DNA from: a virus
IMG/VR virus record: IMGVR_UViG_3300032215_000040
Coordinates: 1 to 23,995 of that record
Direction: 5' to 3' (one strand)
DNA: 23,995 nt
The position numbers and the translations under genes are program-made. The notes beneath the pieces were generated by a model. The model worked only from the letters and a program-made list of their open reading frames with translations. It was not told where the DNA came from and did no database searches. Below, piece by piece: positions 3,747 to 23,995 of the stretch (positions are counted from its first letter, which is position 1; every line of letters starts with the position of its first letter).

Positions 3747-4523
3747 TTATGACCAGTAAGTAACTCTTGCGTAGCCTGAGCCACCAGCACCGCCAGTGCC
3801 TTGAGCGCCTGACCCTAATCCTCCACCTGACGCACCACCACCGCCACCGCCAGTATTAGCAGTTCCAGCAGTACCATTAGCACCAGTAGGGGTACCAGAG
3901 GTACCAGCATTGCCACCACCGCCACCACCGCCAAATCCGAAAATTCCTGGTCCTCCGTCAGCAGTTCCCACAGGAGTAAAACTACCAAGAGCGCCTGTAC
4001 CACCACCAGCAGTTGCAGCGCCACTATCCATTTGAACAAGTGTAGGGTTAGTGCTTCCGTCGTATCTATAAGAGATATTGACAACAGGTGCATTTCCACC
4101 AGCACCGCCACCGCCACCACCGCCAGCAGAGCGAAGGTTATAACTTCCAGCACCTCCAGTTGGAGAGTTTCCTCCTCTAAAACCTGAACCAGCAGTTCCA
4201 CCTCCTGCTGATAAAAGTGCGCCAAATGTAGAAGCATTTCCAGCGCCTCCATTAACAGCACCAGCAGCACCGATTGTTATTGTGTAAGCAGTATTAGGAA
4301 CAACAGCAAGGGTTCTTTGTAAAACTCCACCACCACCGCCACCTGAACCACCATTATAGGCAGGAGTGCCACCGCCTGACGCACCACCGCCGCCACCAGC
4401 ACCGCTTCCGACTAAAAATACTTCAACAGCAGTACAGTTATATGGAACAGTAAAAGTACCTGTAGCTGTGAACTCCTGGACCTTTTGAGTCGGTATAGAG
4501 TTTGGAAACGTAGATAAACCCAT
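3747..4523 (-). CDS. Glycine-rich tail-tip protein, putative receptor-binding protein
   Basis: A 258-residue protein. After a short N-terminus comes a beta segment (FTATGTFTVPYNCTAVEVFLVG) and then long runs of Gly broken by Ala/Ser/Asn/Thr, ending in GSGYARVTYWS. This matches the glycine-rich domain seen in many phage tail tip proteins, where a PAG-type strand leads into a sheet of polyglycine loops. The start is ATG at 4521-4523, overlapping the stop of the zinc-ribbon gene as TAATG. The DNA is made of repeated GGN codons (CC-rich triplets on the plus strand), which makes long false reading frames elsewhere. Its closest relative in the window is the gene at 4869-5726. Receptor binding is inferred from position and composition. 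Confidence 0.75.
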   Translation of the reverse strand: MGLSTFPNSIPTQKVQEFTATGTFTVPYNCTAVEVFLVGSGAGGGGGASGGGTPAYNGGSGGGGGGVLQRTLAVVPNTAYTITIGAAGAVNGGAGNASTFGALLSAGGGTAGSGFRGGNSPTGGAGSYNLRSAGGGGGGGAGGNAPVVNISYRYDGSTNPTLVQMDSGAATAGGGTGALGSFTPVGTADGGPGIFGFGGGGGGGNAGTSGTPTGANGTAGTANTGGGGGGASGGGLGSGAQGTGGAGGSGYARVTYWS

Positions 4524-4858
4524 TAGATATCCTTTGCTGAGCTGATTTTAGGAATTTTTCCGCTAGGAGTCTTAGGCTTCATTTCGTCAATTATACGTTG
4601 TGCCTGCTCAGCTAGTCGCTCAGCCTCAGCTAGTAGCGTCGCCTCAGCATTAGCTCTATGAGCCCTATCAGCCTCGTCCTTAGCCTTAGCTAGAGCTGCT
4701 AGGTGATCGTCGCCAATATAGTCCTTGCTCTGGAGTGAGTAGTTAGATTTTTCGCACACTACGCAGGTAATAAAAATTTGCGCGTCGAGCTCATCTCTCT
4801 GCTCGATATGGGTATGACCGCACCCAGAGCATACATACTGAAATCGAACCGTTGCCAT
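4523..4858 (-). CDS. Zinc-ribbon plus coiled-coil protein
   Basis: A 111-residue protein. C10-xx-C13 and C32-xx-C35 (YVCSGCGHTH and FITCVVCEKS) form a Cys4 zinc ribbon. It is followed by an Ala/Glu-rich coiled coil at about residues 52-92 (LAALAKAKDEADRAHRAN) and a basic tail (KTPSGKIPKISSAKD). ATG at 4856-4858 has AGGAGA eight bases upstream, a strong site. It sits between the two glycine-rich tail-tip genes and starts eleven bases after the first one ends. Possible roles are a structural trimeric spacer, or an assembly factor for glycine-rich proteins; neither is shown by sequence. I do not recognise a named family. Confidence 0.7.
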   Translation of the reverse strand: MATVRFQYVCSGCGHTHIEQRDELDAQIFITCVVCEKSNYSLQSKDYIGDDHLAALAKAKDEADRAHRANAEATLLAEAERLAEQAQRIIDEMKPKTPSGKIPKISSAKDI

Positions 4859-13668: not shown

Positions 13669-14555
13669 TAGCGCACCTTGCGGAAGGGACGTAGCAGCTC
13701 CTTAGCGAGCGCTAGGTCTGATCCGATAATGTCCTGAACGCTAGGTCCTGAGCTAGCTCGTGTTGTGACCGCCATAGTCAGTGAGTTATCTCCACGTACC
13801 TTTAGAAAGTCTGTAGTTACCAGGATTGCAGCCTCTTTTACAGCTGCTGGCATACCTGAGAAGGCTGCGCTGGTATGTGTGTAGGCCAGGTTAGTCGTCA
13901 GTACAACAGGTGAGGCGCCATAGACATAGGTAGGCGATACCTGCAGGCGCTCGCTGTACTGTCCGTCGTAGAAGTTAATAATTTGTCCAGGCAGGATACC
14001 TGTCACGTCCGTCGCTGTTACGTTTTTCTGTCCAGCTGCGCCACTGCCTAGAGTATTTACATATCCAGCAGTGTAGGTATAGCTAGCGTAGATCTGAGAG
14101 CTAGGAGACGGTGGAAAGCCAAATGAGAGAGGTCCCTGGGAGCTGTAGGTCAGAGGTCCCTGAGATAGTGGATAGATAAACTGGCTAGACTCTAGCCACG
14201 CCTGAGATACGTCAGGTACAGCTGCTAGCTGATTAGGTGAGGCACCCCAGCTGAGAGCACTTACCGAGATCAGTGGGTTAATTTCTGGCCTAATAATTAA
14301 ATTGCCCTGAGGCGTGATACGTGTCCGCTGTAGCTCGTTGATCGAGCGAGCGATCAAGGACTGATTGAGGTGAGTGTTGATCCAGGAGCTAGCGCGACCG
14401 ATTACCGAAAATAGCTCAGCGTCCTGTGCAGCTGCATTTCCACCTACTACTAGGTTGTCATAGTCAATCGCTGTTGGAGCATTTTTATACTCTGCAAGAG
14501 TCAGATACTCATTGTCCTGGTAATACGGTGTGCTATTGGTTACCGCTATCGCCAT
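13668..14555 (-). CDS. Head-tail connector / adaptor protein
   Basis: A 295-residue protein that overlaps the zinc-ribbon gene by 23 bases; ATG at 14553-14555 has GGAGA upstream. The N-terminus (YLTLAEYKNAPTAIDYDNL, LFSVIGRASSWINTHLNQSL) and the C-terminus (AVKEAAILVTTDFLKVRGDN, DLALAKELLRPFRKVR) are the two helical halves of HK97-gp6/gp15-like adaptors that form a ring under the portal. About 150 residues of mostly beta sequence lie between them (Tyr/Ser/Pro-rich, QGPLSFGFPPSPSSQIYASY and more), making it longer than the usual 100-150 residue adaptor but similar to actinophage versions. Confidence 0.75.
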   Translation of the reverse strand: MAIAVTNSTPYYQDNEYLTLAEYKNAPTAIDYDNLVVGGNAAAQDAELFSVIGRASSWINTHLNQSLIARSINELQRTRITPQGNLIIRPEINPLISVSALSWGASPNQLAAVPDVSQAWLESSQFIYPLSQGPLTYSSQGPLSFGFPPSPSSQIYASYTYTAGYVNTLGSGAAGQKNVTATDVTGILPGQIINFYDGQYSERLQVSPTYVYGASPVVLTTNLAYTHTSAAFSGMPAAVKEAAILVTTDFLKVRGDNSLTMAVTTRASSGPSVQDIIGSDLALAKELLRPFRKVR

Positions 14556-14847
14556 ATTCTATTTCTCCGTCAGTTTGTGGATCCGTTGTCTCGTGTCCGC
14601 ACCGTGAGCACTTGCGAAACCAGGACCCGAATCCGCATTGGGTACAAGTATAGCCTCGTCCAGTATCTCCAGGAGTGTAGGGATTGAGACTCTCCTCGAT
14701 AAAGCCCTCAGCCTTGAGAGCTCTAATATGATTTGGATTATCTACTGAGTACATACCCTGGCGATCAGCTGAGTACGTCACCTTGCCTGACTGCGAGTTA
14801 ATCTCTGTCTGCTTTACATATCCGTCACGTGGTACCAGTCGTGCCAT
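14533..14847 (-). CDS. Small zinc-ribbon protein after the capsid gene
   Basis: A 104-residue protein starting with ATG at 14845-14847, chosen because AGGAGG lies at the proper distance (14850-14855); an upstream in-frame start at 14949 would run back into the capsid gene and has no such site. Features: RLVPRDGYVKQTEINSQSG, then NPNHIRALKAEGFIEE, a motif I associate with small actinophage head genes, then C68-xx-C71 and C80-xx-C83 (YTCTQCGFGSWFRKCSRCG), a Cys4 zinc ribbon with a short loop. Acidic end. It may be a head decoration or completion protein or an assembly factor; function not known. Confidence 0.72.
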   Translation of the reverse strand: MARLVPRDGYVKQTEINSQSGKVTYSADRQGMYSVDNPNHIRALKAEGFIEESLNPYTPGDTGRGYTCTQCGFGSWFRKCSRCGHETTDPQTDGEIEYGDSGNQ

Positions 14848-14865
14848 TTTGCCTCCTATGAGTAA

Positions 14866-14912: not shown

Positions 14913-16577
14913 TTACGCGTTGATGATACCTGACACTACACCGTTCCAAGCTGGAGCTGTGCAGAAGAAAGTACCGCGAAAATAAGTAGAAAATTCATAG
15001 GCAAACTGGGTCACAGGCCATTGAATCCCCATATAATCTTGAACGAGGTAGTTAGACCAAACATCAGAAACCTCTGTGTCTGGAATAGGAAGTGTCCAGC
15101 TAATTACTGGTGAGACTCCCTGTGGTAGCCAAGGGTGGACGATTAGATCCAGTGCCTTGCCTGTTACTTCGTTCACGATTCCACCAACGACTGATCCGTA
15201 GACCACGCCATTAGTTTCATCTTGAGAGATTTGTAGACGGTAGTTGCTGTTAGCAGCACCCTTAATAGCGTCAGATAGCTGCTTGCGATCTGAGCCGTTG
15301 ATAAGGATTGCGTCTGGATCAGCCTTTACAGCGTCATAGAGACCAGCGAATACCTTTTGATATTCCACGCCTGGATTAGTGTTGCTAAATGAGGCGTTGA
15401 TATCGTTGATATATCCTGAGTTAGATCCGAGGACTGTAGGCAGGATTCCGTCGTAGCCAGTTGCATAGGCTGAGGTGTCAGCGTTTGCACGTGAGGCTAG
15501 GATTGCGCTTGCAGTTGAGTAGACAAGAGTGTCGCCTACTGAGGCAGAGCCAGTTCCGACAATGTATGCAGTATTGCTCTTAAATGTTCCCTGGTACTTA
15601 GCGTTAGCTGTACCAGTTGTTGTACCGATATAGACGTTGTATCCGAGTGCTCCAGTGACGTCTGCGACGACAATCTTGAGAACTTGTGACGTTGTAGCTT
15701 GTGAGGCCACTGTAGGAACGATAGATTCACCGAATCCTGATCCTGAGATACCAGCGTCTGATGTTACGTAGATATAGTAGGTGTTGTTAGCTAGAGCTAC
15801 TTGACCTGTTGTAGCTGACGGTGCAGTGACAGTAACTGTAGGAGCTGCAAGAGCGCCTGAGTATCCGCTAGCTGTACCGCGAGCCATCAACATCATACGT
15901 TCTTCCATCAACATTGTTGCGTAAAGTGTTGAAGTTGAAGAAAGTTGACGTAGATCCTGGTATCCGAGACCAGAGAAGTTAGCGTCAAATGACACGCTAT
16001 CTGATAGTGAGTAGCTGTTGTATGGCAAGACTAGATCGTCAGCTGTGTACGAGATCTTAGGACCACGTTCGAAGGCGATTGAGCCAAATGAAGTGGTTGT
16101 AGATTCTGTGATACCAGGCCAGATATTGCCTTGACCGCCAGTGCCTGTACCTGTGTAGCCAGTTATACGCTTAACACGGTGGGAGGTACCAACACCCTTT
16201 TTACGAGGGATACGGTTACGTAGAGGAGTTGGACGTGGAGTCAGCAGCTTAGCTGGTGCTTCCAAGTCAAACGCTGCAAATGAGGTAGAGAGTGGAGAGG
16301 TAAGCGAAATATCCTTTTGGATATCTTGCATAGCTGTCCGTTGTGAGGCAATCGCGTTGTTTAGTCCAGCGAGAGCGTCAGGTGATAGAGACTTGTTATT
16401 AGCTAGCGCTTCGAGTGTAGCTACTGGGTCAGCTGCAGGAGCTTGTCCAGGTACAGTCGAGGCGTTGGAGAGTGACTTGCTGAGTTCAGCTGTGTACTCG
16501 TCCATTAGCTTTGCAGATTTTTTAGCAGAGCTGGCGTCTGAGAACAGGTCAGCTGCTTTTGGGGCATTTAGAGCCAT
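14913..16577 (-). CDS. Major capsid protein (HK97 fold) with inserted Ig-like domain
   Basis: A 554-residue capsid protein. Residues 1-110 are helical and charged (SAKLMDEYTAELSKSLSN, PDALAGLNNAIASQRTAMQD), like the scaffold-like delta domain that the prohead protease removes; a likely cut region is near residues 105-125 (LEAPAKLLTPRPTP). The HK97 body follows, including SFGSIAFERGPKISYTADDL and YQKVFAGLYDAVKADPDAIL. Residues 243-345 are an inserted Ig/fibronectin-like beta domain (APTVTVTAPSATTGQ, ANNTYYIYVTSDAG, GYNVYIGTT), which accounts for a length well above the usual 300-400. ATG at 16575-16577 has AAAGGA upstream. Neighbours are the protease on one side and head-tail genes on the other. 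Confidence 0.88.
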   Translation of the reverse strand: MALNAPKAADLFSDASSAKKSAKLMDEYTAELSKSLSNASTVPGQAPAADPVATLEALANNKSLSPDALAGLNNAIASQRTAMQDIQKDISLTSPLSTSFAAFDLEAPAKLLTPRPTPLRNRIPRKKGVGTSHRVKRITGYTGTGTGGQGNIWPGITESTTTSFGSIAFERGPKISYTADDLVLPYNSYSLSDSVSFDANFSGLGYQDLRQLSSTSTLYATMLMEERMMLMARGTASGYSGALAAPTVTVTAPSATTGQVALANNTYYIYVTSDAGISGSGFGESIVPTVASQATTSQVLKIVVADVTGALGYNVYIGTTTGTANAKYQGTFKSNTAYIVGTGSASVGDTLVYSTASAILASRANADTSAYATGYDGILPTVLGSNSGYINDINASFSNTNPGVEYQKVFAGLYDAVKADPDAILINGSDRKQLSDAIKGAANSNYRLQISQDETNGVVYGSVVGGIVNEVTGKALDLIVHPWLPQGVSPVISWTLPIPDTEVSDVWSNYLVQDYMGIQWPVTQFAYEFSTYFRGTFFCTAPAWNGVVSGIINA

Positions 16578-16595: not shown

Positions 16596-18065
16596 TTAGT
16601 CCTCGTCAGTGGTGAGCTGTCCAGCCTTAGAGAGATATTCCTTCTCTAGTGCCTTATAGCCCTTGACGAGAATAGGGTCTGAGGTTGCTGCTGCCTTGAC
16701 ACGGTATTCCGTTGCCTTGGTCAGTAGCTCGTTGTTTGTTGTGACAGCTGCACGACCAGTCCGCTTTGGACCGCCAGCTACTGCTGCCGATTTTGCCGTG
16801 ACGAGCTCTGATTCAAGAGCTACCGCGTGTGCCTCAGCTGCCTTAGTTGCAGCTCGAAGTTCAGCGATCTCAGCCTTGACTGATTCAGTCGCACTCTTTA
16901 CAGCTTTCTCTACGATTTCAGCTACTGCCTCGTCGTCGAGAGATTCAGGTGCAGATACTTCCTCTGCAGGGGTTTCTACTGGGAGCTCAGCGTCTACTAG
17001 CTCAGGAGCGTCGTCGCCCTCAGCTGACTTAGGAGCTACGATCTCAGCTGTCGATACATCTGAGCGACCGTGAGAGTCGTCTACCTTGTGGCACCCGCAC
17101 TCTAGGCACTTTTCAGCTGTAGCTGACTTAGCCATAGTGCATTTGTCGCAGGGAGACTTATCGCAGCCACCGTCAGCCTTGCAGCCAGCGCAGCCGTCGC
17201 ACTCGCAATCAGACTTTGTCATATCTGTATCTGCTGATAGTCCTAGTACCTCGCTGACGTCTGAGTGAGGTGTTTCGCCTTCCTCAGTTTCACCGTCGTA
17301 CCAGTGGAATAAATGCTTTAGTGCGTCGAGTAGCTCGTCGATCGAGTCACGCTCGTCTGATCCACCCTCTGCCATTTCGCCAGCCTCAACGATGATGAGC
17401 TGAGCTAGTGCGCGTCGAGCTGTGTCGTATGCGCCCTGGTCAAACTTTACGGTGTCACCTACAGCAGACTTTTTGAGCTCTAGAATAGTTTCTACTAATG
17501 CTGATTTTTCCACTGGAGTCTCCGATACTGGTGTTTGATTACTAGAAAGTGTAACTGATTGGTCGCCCTCTATGAGCTCCTCGACCTGGGTCAGTGTGCT
17601 ATCGCCACCTACTGATTTAGCTAGCACTAGCTGGCAGGTAGGGTTAGCTGGTCTATCGACTAGTGATACCTCGACGATCTGACCGTCTACGATACGACCG
17701 TTAGCAGCCTTGTTATCGCGCACGATACGTGGTGCCTTGATACCAATAGAAAATCCCTTGAGTACCTTGTGCTCTACCTTTTTAATCGATCCCTCGTCCA
17801 CGACCTTAGCCGTGACGTAGTATCCGTCTTTCTTTTCCTCGTACTCTGTGGCGACGCCAGCTGCAATAGAGCTGTGCTGCTCACGAATATTTCCACCAGA
17901 CTTGAACCACTCTGGCATAGCTCGTCCAAGCCAGTCGTTGTCGCAGATTTGCTGGTCAATGTCCAGATCGTCGCTAGTTGCTTTCCCATAGACAGTCAGC
18001 GTTCCGTCGTCATTTTTGTCATATTTAATAATCTCCGCATAGGAGGTAGTGAAGTCTGTAGCCAT
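16596..18065 (-). CDS. Prohead protease fused to Cys-rich segment and scaffold-like coiled coil
   Basis: A 489-residue protein. Residues 1-150 form an HK97-type prohead protease (S78/U35 type): His in REQHS (H64), Ser in LKGFSIGIK (S106), and a third acidic residue in VEVSLVDRPANP (E132), the order expected for this serine protease. Residues 185-270 are mixed helical (DTARRALAQLIIVEAGEMAE, IDELLDALKHLFHWYDGE). Residues 287-326 hold ten Cys and one His in short spacings (CECDGCAGC, CDKSPCDKC, CLECGCH). Then an acidic stretch and a long coiled coil at about 375-430 end in a basic tail, like a scaffold. AGGAGA before ATG at 18063-18065. It is placed directly before the capsid gene. Protease call is firm. 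Confidence 0.85.
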   Translation of the reverse strand: MATDFTTSYAEIIKYDKNDDGTLTVYGKATSDDLDIDQQICDNDWLGRAMPEWFKSGGNIREQHSSIAAGVATEYEEKKDGYYVTAKVVDEGSIKKVEHKVLKGFSIGIKAPRIVRDNKAANGRIVDGQIVEVSLVDRPANPTCQLVLAKSVGGDSTLTQVEELIEGDQSVTLSSNQTPVSETPVEKSALVETILELKKSAVGDTVKFDQGAYDTARRALAQLIIVEAGEMAEGGSDERDSIDELLDALKHLFHWYDGETEEGETPHSDVSEVLGLSADTDMTKSDCECDGCAGCKADGGCDKSPCDKCTMAKSATAEKCLECGCHKVDDSHGRSDVSTAEIVAPKSAEGDDAPELVDAELPVETPAEEVSAPESLDDEAVAEIVEKAVKSATESVKAEIAELRAATKAAEAHAVALESELVTAKSAAVAGGPKRTGRAAVTTNNELLTKATEYRVKAAATSDPILVKGYKALEKEYLSKAGQLTTDED

Positions 18066-18418: not shown

Positions 18419-18649
18419 TTAGCTGGAGGTAGCTCCACTAGGTAGGTATGACTCTACCTCTCCCTGGGTAGACTCCCAGATTTTGTCATTGCCTGCGAAG
18501 TACCACTGACGTACTCGATTTGTTTTCTCCCAGCCAGTGCCCTTGGGTATAGACCACTGCTGCTCAGATAGGAGTGTCGTGCCGTCAAAGGTCGCCCGAT
18601 AGATTGCAAATATGCCCTCTGAGTCCCTGCCTATAAAGTACTTTGTCAT
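18419..18649 (-). CDS. Small protein after MuF gene, unknown
   Basis: A 76-residue protein with GGAGGG before ATG at 18647-18649; the start overlaps the MuF gene stop (ATGA). It begins KYFIGRDSEGIFAIYRATFD and later has WSIPKGTGWEKTNRVRQWYF and KIWESTQGEVESYLP. Aromatic and polar, likely a small beta/alpha fold. Its location right after a MuF protein with a possible toxin-like domain makes an immunity or chaperone role worth testing, but the sequence itself does not indicate one. Confidence 0.58.
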   Translation of the reverse strand: MTKYFIGRDSEGIFAIYRATFDGTTLLSEQQWSIPKGTGWEKTNRVRQWYFAGNDKIWESTQGEVESYLPSGATSS

Positions 18650-20265
18650 AGCCCTCCCTCCTCTAGATAGTAGCGCACCTGTAATTTATTATCAACAAAC
18701 TTAGCAACCTTTGGAGTACCAAATCCCTGTAGTCCAGGAGGAGTAGATAGCGTTGCTGAATTAGCCACCATTTGAGCGTTCATAGCCTGAGCGCTAGAGG
18801 TGCTAGTGTCGTCGAGCTTACGATATACCTCATAGATTGGGTGATTAGTACTTTCTTTCATAGCCAGAGACTCAGCTGTATGGAACTGTAGTTCGATTTT
18901 CTGACCAGAGTGATCTGTAAGAGCTACGTTTACTCCCTTGTAGTTTGATCCCTCCTGCCAGTAATTTTTTACTCGTACATCAAATCCTCTGGCACGTAAA
19001 TCCTCAGTAACTGCACGTGCGCTGGCTGCATAGTCCTTTGGATCAGAAACCATTGTGTATCTAACAGCGTCGCTTACCTCACGAGCTGCACGAGCAACGT
19101 TGCCCTTATAGTCACGCCTAGCGTCGTCTGCAATTTTACGAGTGAGAGACTCGACTGTTTTCAGACGATTATTTAGCCCTGCTAGCTGAGTACCGTGAGT
19201 ACCTGCGAGCTCTCTCATAACGCTAGTAACACCAGGCTCAGCGTGTGACGCTTTTTCAAATATAGCCGTAGCGTGATAGGCAGCCTCGTGTTTAGACGTA
19301 GTTGAATCTCCACCGCCTGAGGTAAATCGTCCACCTGGGTCTCTAGCCTGAGACTCTGAGTACTTAGCTAGATCAGCTGCTACAGCCATATCAGCCTGGT
19401 CAGCGCTATCTCCACCGTCACCGTATCCAGTCATATCTGGCATTAGTGGCAGTAGGTCACACTGGCAGTTAGGGTGTACTGGAGGCTGTGTATCTCCAGA
19501 GTTAAACTCGTCGCCTAGATTTACTATCTGACCGTCATTATCTATGCAGTCGATATCGTCTGGCGCATTTACCGTCCACTCCACCTGCTCTACGCCATTG
19601 TCTGCGTAGCTCTGTACGTTAGCCTCGATCTTAGCTCGCTGTCCCTCAGTGATAGCTATAGTCAGAGCTCGTGAGGGGTCAGAAATAAAGTCGCCTAGCG
19701 AGTCAGCTATATCCTCAGGCGTCCAGCCCTTAGATATACCGTCAGCTAGAGCTGTGCCTAGTAGATCGTGCGTAGTGTCAGCTATACCGCGTGACTGAAT
19801 ATTTATATCACCCAGGAGTTTTTTTAGTCCACCTGGTGTATTGAGCAGTAGAGCTGCAGCCTCATTACCTGGCGTCCAGGTATCCCAATCTATAGAGAAG
19901 GTCGGATCAAATGCAGTTTGAGGATTTCCACTGACGCCTACTACTCCAGCCTTATCCAGGGATTTTTTAGACCTGGTGGCCTCTCTCATCTGCTCCTGAG
20001 CTGTATTTAGTCCCAGAGCGTAGAAATCCACGTAAGTTTTAGCTAATACTTTTTTGTATGCCTCTAGATCCAGGGAGACGTGAAGCATAGACCAGGCTCG
20101 TGCGCGAGCGCGATCCTGTGCGCGTGAGTCACTAGCTACTGGGTGAGTATCTAGATATCCAGCTACTACTCTGCTAGGAGTGATACTCGTAGCTAGAGCT
20201 GCTCTAATTTTGACTGCGCTACGTGCTGCTAGTCGCGCACTAGATCTGAGTGCGCCCTGGCTCAC
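18646..20265 (-). CDS. MuF-type minor head protein with RelA/SpoT-like C-terminal domain
   Basis: A 539-residue protein starting with GTG at 20263-20265, overlapping the portal stop (GTGA). Residues 1-275 are the MuF-type core: helical body, IAITEGQRAKIEANVQSYAD, a W...C region (EWTVNAPDDIDCIDND), and the closing PPVHPNCQCD (residues 261-270), which is diagnostic. Residues 301-319 are a linker nearly identical to one in the portal. Residues about 365-485 look like a RelA/SpoT nucleotidyltransferase: VESLTRKIADDARRD, VSDAVRYTMVSDPKDYA, then NYKGVNVALTD and KIELQFHTAESLAMK, in the place of the family's strand pairs and E-x-Q-x-R/H-T block. By family knowledge MuF proteins are inside the virion and may carry toxin domains. 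The enzyme call is fair, not certain. Confidence 0.8.
   Translation of the reverse strand: MSQGALRSSARLAARSAVKIRAALATSITPSRVVAGYLDTHPVASDSRAQDRARARAWSMLHVSLDLEAYKKVLAKTYVDFYALGLNTAQEQMREATRSKKSLDKAGVVGVSGNPQTAFDPTFSIDWDTWTPGNEAAALLLNTPGGLKKLLGDINIQSRGIADTTHDLLGTALADGISKGWTPEDIADSLGDFISDPSRALTIAITEGQRAKIEANVQSYADNGVEQVEWTVNAPDDIDCIDNDGQIVNLGDEFNSGDTQPPVHPNCQCDLLPLMPDMTGYGDGGDSADQADMAVAADLAKYSESQARDPGGRFTSGGGDSTTSKHEAAYHATAIFEKASHAEPGVTSVMRELAGTHGTQLAGLNNRLKTVESLTRKIADDARRDYKGNVARAAREVSDAVRYTMVSDPKDYAASARAVTEDLRARGFDVRVKNYWQEGSNYKGVNVALTDHSGQKIELQFHTAESLAMKESTNHPIYEVYRKLDDTSTSSAQAMNAQMVANSATLSTPPGLQGFGTPKVAKFVDNKLQVRYYLEEGGL
19309..19365 (-). repeat. 19-residue linker repeat, MuF copy
   Basis: MuF residues 301-319 read KYSESQARDPGGRFTSGGG, following the structural HPNCQC core and preceding the RelA/SpoT-like region. 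See the portal copy at 21210-21266. Confidence 0.75.
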
Positions 20266-22979
20266 GTCAGATACGCCCTAGCTAGTGCTCTAGCTGTATC
20301 TAGATCGCCGTCAAATGCACACTTATTTAGAGCCTCACCCACGATCGAGTCAAGCGCTACGAATACAAAGTCACGACGATTAGCTCCACCTTTTTTGGCC
20401 CACTTAAAAAATGCTCTGACCTCATCTGACGCAGCCTTAGCCATATCAGGAGTGCCTAGCCATACTGGAGCCTGGTCCATACCTAGTAGCCACATTGCAA
20501 ATAGTCTGTGATGACCGTCAATAATTATGTTTTTTTCACCGTCGTTATATACAAGTGCATAGCTACGATACTCAGTCAGCGCCTGGCCCATAGCCTCAAT
20601 ATGATCTGCGACGTTAGAGCGATCCAGGCTTGTATCTGTACCGTATAGCTCCCTGATATTTACCAGGGTCAGCTCAGCCTTACTCCATACGTCAGGAGAT
20701 ACTGCATAGTTGCCGTCGTTAGTTTCTACAATAGGCCAGGGACTAGCTACGGTATCTGCGAGCTCGTTAGGATCATCTGAAATAGGGTGCTCACCAGCTG
20801 CGTTAGGTAGGACCTTTAGCTTAGATAGACCGTCCTTTACCTCAGCCTTACTAGGTACGCCAGCTTTATTAGCTGACTTTACTGAACCACTAGATACTCC
20901 TGTGCTTAATGTAGATAATCTGTCAGCTACACCTGATAGGCGCTCAGCTGCTGTGCTGTATCCACTGCTAGAAAATGTAGTAGCTGCGTCACGTATGCCC
21001 TGAGCTGCGTCTGATAGGTGTCCAGCTGCGCTCTCTCCTGCTCCGTTATTAAGAGCGTTGTCTAAAGATCGTGACGCGTCGCGTAGTTTGTCGTGAGCGT
21101 CTCGTGTATCTGCATTAACAGGAACCTTGCTGCTAAATCTGCTTATATCGCTACTATGCGAGTTGATCTGGTTAGCTGTTTCTTTGCTAAATGCAGCGTC
21201 TTGGCCAGCTCCACCACCCGCTGAGAATCGACCGTGCTCGTCTCTTTCCTGGCTATCTGAATACTTGAGTCCGTCTGACTCAACATTGCCCTCACCAGCT
21301 GGTACAGGAGTGTTTAACTTTTCCTCAGCGCCAGGAGCAGGGATAGTCACTGGCTGCTTCTCTGGCTGTGGTGCTACTGGACTAGTGTCAGGATCTAGCT
21401 CCTCAGCTGATCCCGCAGCTGTAGTCACGTTCACTATGCCGTCTGGTGTAAATAGGAATACGCCTGCACCCGCGACCAGCATTGGCTGATCTGCAGCTGG
21501 AGTATCGAGTAGTGGTAGTCCGAGCTGTGATCGACGCTCGTTAATTGTACGTGTAGCTCCGCGTAGCTCTAGATCTGCTCGCGCTGCCTCCTGCTGAGTA
21601 TCTCTACCCTCGTCAATCATAAACTTAAACTCTAGCTCTCTAGGCATACCGAGATAGCTATAGCTGAGATTTGTTAGCATACGAGAGATCCAGGTGACGA
21701 GTGGTCCAACACCGATCTGCTGTGCTGAGGCCTGCTCTCCTGCCTGGTGTCCTGAGCCACCTAGTCCACCGTGACCAGAGAATCCGATCTCAGTAGGCAT
21801 AACGCCAAAGTGTCCGCATATAGAGGTGACTAGATAGGTGTCTAGTACCTCCTTGAACTTCTCGCCGTAGCCGTCAAATTGCACTGGATCAAATCCAGCT
21901 GGAAGTACGCGTGAGCGCTTGCGCTGCTCTGTCTGTCCAGCTAGGTCGTCATTAAGCGCGTTCTCTAGCTGCTTTAAAAGGATTGGATCGTTACCGAAGT
22001 CTGCGTCTACCTTAAACATCAGCTCTGGCATTACGCCGTCTGTGTACTCAGCTCGTAGCCACTGCTGGCGACGTAGGTAGATATCTGCCATAGGTAGACA
22101 GCGCTCTACTGGAGAGCTGCCATACATTGAGGTCGTTTTGCGATTGCGGATTAAATAGGCGAGCTCATCTGAGCTGAACTCACCGTCTGCCTCAATGTTG
22201 TCGTTCTCAGCCATAAACTCTGAGCGTGGGAATCCGTAGAGGATTTGCTGGAAGGCAGGGTGAGGTGGCATTGGCCTCATACCACGATCGTCTAGTAGTG
22301 GCTTGATAGTCGCGCCGTCCAAAATCTGTAGACCGTATAAGTCTCCACCTACTGATCGCTGAGGCCAGATAGCCCAGGCGTCTAGTACCAGGATCTCCTC
22401 TAGCGCAACCATTAGCCAGTCAATAAATGTAAGTCCGTTAGCCTTATCTGGGTTCTCCCAGAAACTACGCACTCGATAAATCTCGTCTGAGTACTTCTCA
22501 CGTGCAGCTGCCATAGCTCGTACGTGATCGCCACCAATCTCAGCTACGATCTTTTCTGACGCGTCCTCTGCGATAGTGATATCCCAGTCCAGGCCAGTAA
22601 TTTTATTCTTTAGTACCTCGATACAGCGACGCACAATGTCGATCTGCTCAGCTGCACCGCGTAAAGTTTTAAATGGGACGAGCTTCTGCTCAGTAGCTAT
22701 GTTTATATTTTGAGCTACCTGGTACTCGTATCGACGAGGAGCTGGTCGTCCGTCAGGACCTAGTGGGTTAATCGCTCCAGGGAATATGGGTGATCCTGGA
22801 CCAAATGGAATACCTGCAGTAATAGGATTTCGCTGTAGCGGATTACCAGAGCCATACGTAGCGTTCTGAGCTACTGTCCTCATATCCTGCTCGCTCATAA
22901 CTGCTGAGCCAGCTGGGAGATTTGGAGCCTTCTGTATTTGATCTGCTACTGCTTTTGCTAGACGGTCTAGTAGACCCAC
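20262..22979 (-). CDS. Portal protein with C-terminal ParB-like domain
   Basis: A 905-residue protein starting with GTG at 22977-22979 with AGGAGA upstream. Residues about 80-500 are a siphovirus-type portal: IDIVRRCIEVLKNKITGLDW, FIDWLMVALEEILVLDAWAI, then YGSSPVERCLPMADIYLRRQ, and FKEVLDTYLVTSICGHFGVM. The usual portal ends near 450-520 residues. Here a Pro/Ala-rich stretch, a linker at 572-590 shared with the MuF protein, about 110 residues of helical sequence (RDAHDKLRDASRSLDNALNN), and a ParB-like domain at about 735-842 follow. The latter has the GxxR box in IIIDGHHRLFAMWLLGM (821-825 DGHHR). The portal forms the dodecameric DNA gate. The added domain is an inference from motif. Confidence 0.87.
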   Translation of the reverse strand: MGLLDRLAKAVADQIQKAPNLPAGSAVMSEQDMRTVAQNATYGSGNPLQRNPITAGIPFGPGSPIFPGAINPLGPDGRPAPRRYEYQVAQNINIATEQKLVPFKTLRGAAEQIDIVRRCIEVLKNKITGLDWDITIAEDASEKIVAEIGGDHVRAMAAAREKYSDEIYRVRSFWENPDKANGLTFIDWLMVALEEILVLDAWAIWPQRSVGGDLYGLQILDGATIKPLLDDRGMRPMPPHPAFQQILYGFPRSEFMAENDNIEADGEFSSDELAYLIRNRKTTSMYGSSPVERCLPMADIYLRRQQWLRAEYTDGVMPELMFKVDADFGNDPILLKQLENALNDDLAGQTEQRKRSRVLPAGFDPVQFDGYGEKFKEVLDTYLVTSICGHFGVMPTEIGFSGHGGLGGSGHQAGEQASAQQIGVGPLVTWISRMLTNLSYSYLGMPRELEFKFMIDEGRDTQQEAARADLELRGATRTINERRSQLGLPLLDTPAADQPMLVAGAGVFLFTPDGIVNVTTAAGSAEELDPDTSPVAPQPEKQPVTIPAPGAEEKLNTPVPAGEGNVESDGLKYSDSQERDEHGRFSAGGGAGQDAAFSKETANQINSHSSDISRFSSKVPVNADTRDAHDKLRDASRSLDNALNNGAGESAAGHLSDAAQGIRDAATTFSSSGYSTAAERLSGVADRLSTLSTGVSSGSVKSANKAGVPSKAEVKDGLSKLKVLPNAAGEHPISDDPNELADTVASPWPIVETNDGNYAVSPDVWSKAELTLVNIRELYGTDTSLDRSNVADHIEAMGQALTEYRSYALVYNDGEKNIIIDGHHRLFAMWLLGMDQAPVWLGTPDMAKAASDEVRAFFKWAKKGGANRRDFVFVALDSIVGEALNKCAFDGDLDTARALARAYLT
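21210..21266 (-). repeat. 19-residue linker repeat, portal copy
   Basis: Portal residues 572-590 read KYSDSQERDEHGRFSAGGG. This matches the MuF copy (19309-19365) at 13 of 19 positions, the differences being mostly D/E, S/T and A/S. In both proteins it marks the end of the structural core and the start of an added domain. Confidence 0.75.
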
Positions 22980-22988
22980 GTGTCTCTC

Positions 22989-23995
22989 CTATGCGGTTGG
23001 TAGTCCTTGTTCTGCGACTGGTGTAATGATAGCGGTTTGACACGCTGGACATACTGCTGTTCCCTTAGGAGCAGGCATACGACAGCTAGGGCAGAAGTCT
23101 ACCTTTGTTGCTAGATATGCCATAGCTGGTGACGCTGTTGATATTTCAGTGACAGCCCAGACTAGTGCGTCCATACGATCTGGAGAGCTACCACTATCAG
23201 GAGTCCAGGTAACCATTTGATCCTCTAGCTCTGCGAATCCTCCTACGTGATGAACGCGTCCCTGCTCATATAGTGCAGACACTGGCTCAGCTCGTACCTG
23301 CTTACCTCTACTAGCTACTACCTTTTTCGTAGGCACCATAGGATCAACCTGCTTGAGTACATTTATCACTAGATCACCACCGTTATTTGTTTCAGCGATT
23401 ATTCGATTGGCTTTATGCTTTTTGTACAGCTCTACAGCCTTTCGCGCCCAGGTATCAGGACTAGCTCGTAGCGATCCGTCCTCTAGTACGTAGTAGTGAC
23501 CGTCCATACTCGCACCTACAACGACAATCCCAGTTTCATCTGACTCCTCACCTGAGGTAACAGCTGGGTCGATAGCTACGACAATCCTGGTCAAGACTGG
23601 GTGCTCAGTAACACGAGCGTCGTCGATCATTTTGTGCGTCCATAGTGCGCCCTCGATATCAGTCAGCAGCTCACCGTATAGCTCCTGGCGTCCGAGCCTG
23701 GTGCCGTTATATCTCAGCTGTAACTCGATCAGTGCCTGTGGAGCTAGATTAGCTGCGTTATCAAATGTCGATCCTCGTACTATCCTCACTGATCCGTCAG
23801 TACGAGCTACTAGCGAGCGCACGAGCGCTACAGGCTTAGGCGTAGTCGTAACTACGGTACGTGGGTGATCGCCTAGACGTAGGCCGAACTGGAGCTGGTC
23901 CCAGGTATCGGGATATCTCCAGGAGCTGAGCTCGTCGCACCAGGCGCCGTGAAACTGTGGACCTCTGAGGCGATTAGGCTCGTCAGCTGAGAATA
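22989..23995 (-). CDS. terL: Terminase large subunit, C-terminal part (cut by window edge)
   Basis: The frame is open to the window edge, so the Walker A ATPase start lies outside; 334 residues are visible. The visible part begins in the ATPase: FHGAWCDELSSWRYPDTWDQ contains the Walker B acidic pair (DE), and RTVVTTTPKP is the coupling motif III. The RNase H-like nuclease follows with Asp in RIVVAIDPAVTSG, Glu in ANRIIAETNNGGD, and a further Asp in SSPDRMDALVWAV, the metal-binding set. It cuts and packages DNA through the portal, whose gene follows with a nine-base gap. The last 40 residues hold CPSC and CPAC in a zinc ribbon, not usual for this family. A GTG at 23822 is only an internal codon. 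Confidence 0.92.
   Translation of the reverse strand, partial: FSADEPNRLRGPQFHGAWCDELSSWRYPDTWDQLQFGLRLGDHPRTVVTTTPKPVALVRSLVARTDGSVRIVRGSTFDNAANLAPQALIELQLRYNGTRLGRQELYGELLTDIEGALWTHKMIDDARVTEHPVLTRIVVAIDPAVTSGEESDETGIVVVGASMDGHYYVLEDGSLRASPDTWARKAVELYKKHKANRIIAETNNGGDLVINVLKQVDPMVPTKKVVASRGKQVRAEPVSALYEQGRVHHVGGFAELEDQMVTWTPDSGSSPDRMDALVWAVTEISTASPAMAYLATKVDFCPSCRMPAPKGTAVCPACQTAIITPVAEQGLPTA

Follow-up and report, generated by a model that had tools for sequence, protein, structure and literature searches.

The usual picture of prohead proteases and scaffolds in phages is that of a protease together with coiled coils. The window (the whole stretch of DNA analysed here, 23,995 nucleotides of an IMG/VR virus record) encodes a protease-scaffold protein in which 10 of the 12 Cys fall in residues 287–325, and the question that this locus raises is what so dense a set of Cys does in the linker of a head-maturation protein. 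The cluster, ten Cys and one His in residues 287–326, had been noticed in a sequence-only reading of the window, and we find it exactly where that reading put it: the Cys are residues 287, 289, 292, 295, 301, 306, 309, 320, 323 and 325 and the His is residue 326, and together they map to 17088–17207 on the minus strand. Chance can be ruled out as the source of the clustering, since none of 20,000 shuffles of the protein placed 10 Cys within 40 residues; in all remaining window proteins taken together Cys makes up 0.49%. The clustering is thus real, but the idea of a single cluster did not hold, and conservation among relatives resolves it into two separable modules, which we call A and B. The features of the locus are as follows.

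16596–18065, minus strand: protease-scaffold protein, an open frame of 489 aa
17616–18065, minus strand: prohead protease domain, residues 1–150, from the invariant columns of an alignment (A1)
17283–17501, minus strand: helical linker module, residues 189–261, predicted by AlphaFold2 (pLDDT 73–86 in residues 211–250, lower at the ends)
17139–17207, minus strand: module A, residues 287–309, CxCx2Cx2Cx5Cx4Cx2[C/H] with Cys at 309 here, from conservation
17124–17132, minus strand: A312-K313-S314, a Lys-Ser pair between modules A and B and a possible cut site, from Lys-Ser counts
17067–17108, minus strand: module B, residues 320–333, CLECGCx6HG (family form CxxCGCx6HG), from conservation
17070–17072, minus strand: H332, candidate fourth ligand of module B, invariant in 63 of 63 module DNAs
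17025–17030, minus strand: K346-S347, a Lys-Ser pair downstream of module B and a possible cut site, from Lys-Ser counts
16776–16934, minus strand: coiled-coil scaffold helix, residues 378–430, predicted by AlphaFold2 (pLDDT about 70–90)
14913–16577, minus strand: likely major capsid protein with a Lys-Ser-rich N-terminal region, from gene order

Residues 1–150 of the protein match head maturation protease PHROGs (phrog_80, 9.5e-8; phrog_3270, 2.6e-7), and the 489-residue protein matches phrog_21715, whose function is not assigned, at 1.3e-25; the matches to Peptidase_S78 (Pfam PF04586, E 0.077) and TIGR01543 (E 0.012) both miss the family cut-offs. H64, S106 and E132 of the protease domain are invariant in alignment A1 (34 sequences), and going by the S78/HK97 family we take them to be the likely catalytic triad. 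AlphaFold2 places a C-terminal helical hairpin (residues 444–480) after the coiled coil. The protease PHROG matches together with the predicted helical module, coiled coil and hairpin make "protease-scaffold fusion" a fair name for what, judged from sequence and model, appears to be an HK97-type prohead protease fused to a scaffold, and they bear out the placing of the Cys between the protease and a coiled-coil scaffold. The genes run in the order terminase, portal, MuF-like head protein, a 93-aa frame, protease-scaffold and likely capsid protein; the name of the last follows from gene order because its sole match, phrog_13692 (1.1e-81), is a PHROG without assigned function. The protein is like the HK97-family prohead protease in its invariant His, Ser and Glu and in having its gene upstream of the capsid gene, and differs from it by the fusion to a scaffold and by the Cys modules. 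We note that the MuF-like head protein (18646–20265, minus strand) has, after a YSESQARDPGGRF motif, a weak RelA/SpoT-like C-terminal region (residues 367–475, E 0.0095, below cut-off).

Conservation was assessed in 27 aligned members, 63 distinct module DNAs and 52 distinct module peptides. Apart from C309, no Cys of modules A and B varies (63 module DNAs, 27 aligned members), and because both TGC and TGT are found at each module Cys position among the 63 DNAs, selection acts on the amino acid. Position 309 is Cys in 58 and His in 5 of the 63 DNAs, and among the 52 peptides only Cys (46) or His (6) occurs there; the His309 forms (L127; L139/L157; L155/L195/L210) occupy different regions of the protease tree. 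G291, G300, L321, G324, H332 and G333 are also invariant, with H332 encoded by CAC as well as CAT, and the residues between these fixed Cys, Gly and His positions vary among relatives. The pN/pS ratio of the modules is 0.31, against 0.16 for a protease segment. H326, the His that the sequence-only reading had counted with the Cys, is His in only 38 of the 63 DNAs, and we therefore reject a functional role for it; the invariant His is H332, just outside the interval of that reading. Lack of Cys conservation in close relatives had been named there as grounds for refutation, and the metal-site-like feature withstands this test. A recent random insertion is rejected as well, since the modules are conserved across relatives, and a search for the same insertion in related phages, also suggested at that stage, finds the modules in many relatives in IMG/VR.

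Scanning IMG/VR gave 76 loci, and scans with distant members gave 6, 19 and 80 loci that overlap in part. With the module alone as query there were 354 confirmed relatives, so that several hundred environmental contigs carry it; among the best 80 of the 354, which were kept, all matches lie within the same protease-scaffold protein. We find that 75 of 145 distinct full-length relatives hold A and B, one holds A twice, 48 hold B only and 21 hold neither of these patterns, proportions that are biased towards holders because some of the search patterns contained the Cys motif. Relatives are about 390 to 704 aa long, and most of this variation lies in the linker. Module A is duplicated in L061/L062, and L039 and L044 have 9-Cys forms. 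In L014 and L045 the DNA to either side of the region is almost the same, but L045 is without A, and its B has diverged; the pair L032 and L051, with a 3′ flank in common, shows the same with/without difference in its modules. Because relatives whose flanks are almost the same can do without module A, the architecture does not depend on it. Mapped on a protease-domain tree, module A shows 12 changes, of which starred branches force at least 3, and module B shows 4; the tree has modest support, and any recombination that separated protease from linker would make these numbers too high. Going by these sequence comparisons, module A is a cassette that has been gained or lost several times, and module B is steadier than A and able to stand alone.

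Other Cys sets occupy the linker in some relatives: a CxxCx6CxC-like set in L057, L168, L171 and L174, the same kind of set together with module B in L260, and a CxCxCxxCx5Cx4CxC form in L261/L262. DUF5872 modules lie in or near the linker of L044, L064, L161 and L218, and since these enter it too, the linker appears to be a general site for small inserts. A YSDSQERDxxGRF motif is found in the portal protein (20262–22979, minus strand) and, as an insert, in the protease-scaffold linker of L056, with a shorter GGRF form in L064. Positions 1–219 of L165, a Gallionellaceae MAG contig, join a short protease piece to a Cys-rich, ferredoxin-like frame, a junction that is perhaps an assembly artefact. 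Two cellular contigs carry good relatives, namely L161, an Actinomycetota MAG contig with module B only, elsewhere in the linker, and L162, an Amycolatopsis contig with adjoining phage head genes and no cluster; on account of these two contigs we infer that the viruses with this protein, a large uncultured group, probably have actinobacterial hosts.

The cluster is absent from the nearest isolated phages (THSA-485A, Alicyclobacillus MMB025, Samisti12 and Dorin), and searches for the modules among isolated phages and plasmids gave nothing or chance matches only. The head protein of Thermoanaerobacterium phage THSA-485A has 44% identity in the protease domain and portal-side and capsid-side neighbours in a similar order, but has no Cys cluster, with 2 Cys in 661 aa. 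The capsid maturation proteases of Samisti12 (a Streptomyces phage) and Dorin (a Rhodococcus phage) likewise have an acidic, helix-like C-terminal part and, somewhat like the protein studied here, Cys directly after the protease domain; these are only three, however, at 193–214 and in another arrangement (CPxH...CxEC in Dorin). The remark that prohead proteases are not known for such a feature is therefore right for the full cluster but too broad for the Streptomyces and Rhodococcus phage enzymes with their three Cys. Among open-access papers, judged by title and abstract, none seemed to describe a zinc or Cys domain in a prohead protease or a phage scaffold.

Zinc ligands typically show exchange between Cys and His, and the modules present invariant Cys/His ligand sets with such an exchange. 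Module B, whose candidate ligands are C320, C323, C325 and H332, would make a complete one-metal site through these four residues. Module A offers seven potential ligands, six Cys and one Cys-or-His, and might form either one four-ligand site with three spare thiols or two metals sharing one bridging Cys. The earlier suggestion of two metal sites or a cluster is borne out in so far as the conserved residues look like metal ligands and would be numerous enough for at least two sites. Because Cys and His replace each other at position 309 and module B has a full CCCH set, we favour zinc or a similar metal over disulfides or iron-sulfur. Small zinc modules in general have CxxC/CxC pairs, Cys/His exchange and invariant Gly beside the ligands, as here, although no Pfam zinc module matches A or B. 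Searches of PDB, Pfam and PHROG with the module gave no significant match and no zinc domain, the best PDB match being ribosomal eS27 (E 0.16, not significant). AlphaFold2 gave no confident fold of the Cys region, either in the whole protein (pLDDT under 50) or for the module alone with 60 sequences (pLDDT 53).

We consider it fairly probable that the cluster consists of putative metal (most likely zinc) knots in the linker, which would space or join scaffold chains and be cut out at maturation. In the reducing cytoplasm the modules would fold around metal as small knots, which would space the protease-scaffold chains, or hold them together, inside the prohead; the active protease would then probably cut at the Lys-Ser pairs on either side of module B, and the knots would depart with the scaffold. 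Retroviral Gag, a structural polyprotein that undergoes cleavage at maturation, likewise carries small zinc modules, its zinc knuckles. This is an analogy only: there is no homology, the order of ligands differs, and the nucleic-acid role of the knuckle is not a feature shown here. A more elaborate version, in which prohead assembly throughout this large group of uncultured phages would depend on metal, strikes us as unlikely. In it, exchangeable metal-thiolate cassettes of the linker would nucleate or time scaffold assembly, with A perhaps a cluster of two metals and seven ligands that has one bridging Cys, and would be cut out metal-loaded at Lys-Ser.

The idea of excision draws on Lys-Ser pairs that bracket module B. 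We counted these in 60 B-holding proteins under 80% identity, in which the distances from Lys-Ser to B vary, and used shuffles as reference. A Lys-Ser lies within 12 aa upstream of B in 51 of the 60 (shuffles, mean 20, maximum 31) and within 50 aa downstream in 58 (shuffles, mean 10.9, maximum 21), counts far above the shuffles; because the sequences are related, the comparison gives no strict probability, and it is no proof of cleavage. Behind the protease domain Lys-Ser is 2.4-fold over expectation and Ser-Lys is not enriched, and we therefore reject mere Lys and Ser content as the source of the excess. The first 110 aa of the capsid protein in 60 relatives hold 109 Lys-Ser against 48 expected (2.3-fold), whereas beyond them 53 are seen against 59 expected; Ser-Lys is not enriched in the N-terminus. 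In HK97, cleavage of the capsid protein takes place at K103/S104 (PMC10275583). The bracketing and the HK97 cut lead us to propose that the protease cuts at Lys-Ser in its linker, and that the pairs around module B may be processing sites. The N-terminus of the capsid protein also has, in the relatives compared, a conserved Lys-Asp (QKDI) shortly before a stretch, LTPRPTPLRN, that is conserved as well. This Lys-Asp, a rival to Lys-Ser, may be the real capsid cut site.

How do other accounts of the cluster fare? The sequence-only reading had raised a latch that silences the protease until assembly, or a sensor of changed redox or metal conditions. The position between protease and scaffold would suit a latch, and Cys clusters elsewhere can respond to redox state; no observation links the cluster with the active site, however, and the protease is equally conserved in relatives without module A (L045, L051) and intact in relatives without any cluster (L162, L163, L242, L249). 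Since relatives without modules keep the same protease, the latch is left without specific support, and we regard a latch or sensor as decidedly unlikely. A metallothionein-like buffer of metal or thiols in the prohead or virion would explain the dense CxC and CxxC, and the 9-Cys and duplicated forms would add thiols to it. Strict spacing, the invariance of each Cys, several Gly and H332 speak instead for defined sites, Pfam metallothionein models have no match at E≤1 in the 27 members, and module B, which is alone in many relatives, would be too small; a buffer is therefore quite unlikely.

The same features bear on the three remaining accounts. Disulfides joining scaffold or protease subunits, a form of the subunit linking once suggested, would be at home in the Cys-rich linker of a presumably oligomeric protein, but the exchange at position 309 disfavours them, as do the invariant His beside invariant Cys and assembly in a reducing cytoplasm, so that we hold them very improbable. 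That exchange also weighs against an iron-sulfur site, one ligand being His in some members; the CxxCxxC runs are loosely like ferredoxin ligands, yet the spacing is unlike, Fer4 and other iron-sulfur models have no match at E≤1 in the 27 members, and such a site seems hardly credible. The linker varies so much in length, and modules come and go in it so readily, that one could take the cluster for a tolerated spacer of no function in a hypervariable stretch. Fixed Cys, Gly and His amid varying letters, invariant despite synonymous change, contradict this, and we find a spacer extremely improbable.

Short Cys pairs occur elsewhere in the window. The 105-aa protein encoded after the capsid gene (14533–14850, minus strand) has a zinc-ribbon-like CxxC...CxxC pair (CTQCGFGSWFRKCSRCG), and L162 encodes a similar stretch (YRCECGFGSHFKTCGRCG) behind its own capsid gene. 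A zinc-ribbon-like pair, CSGCGH...CVVCEK, is present in a 111-aa protein (4523–4858, minus strand), and the terminase (22989–23993, minus strand) ends in CPSC...CPAC, with a weak double-zinc-ribbon match (E 0.014).

For the reading that we favour, metal knots in the linker that are cut out at maturation, the L014/L045 and L032/L051 pairs are natural with/without comparisons of the module, and the Lys-Ser cut-site predictions are directly testable. If that reading is true, head assembly or maturation in a common group of aquatic phages would have a metal- or thiol-dependent step not yet seen in any model system.
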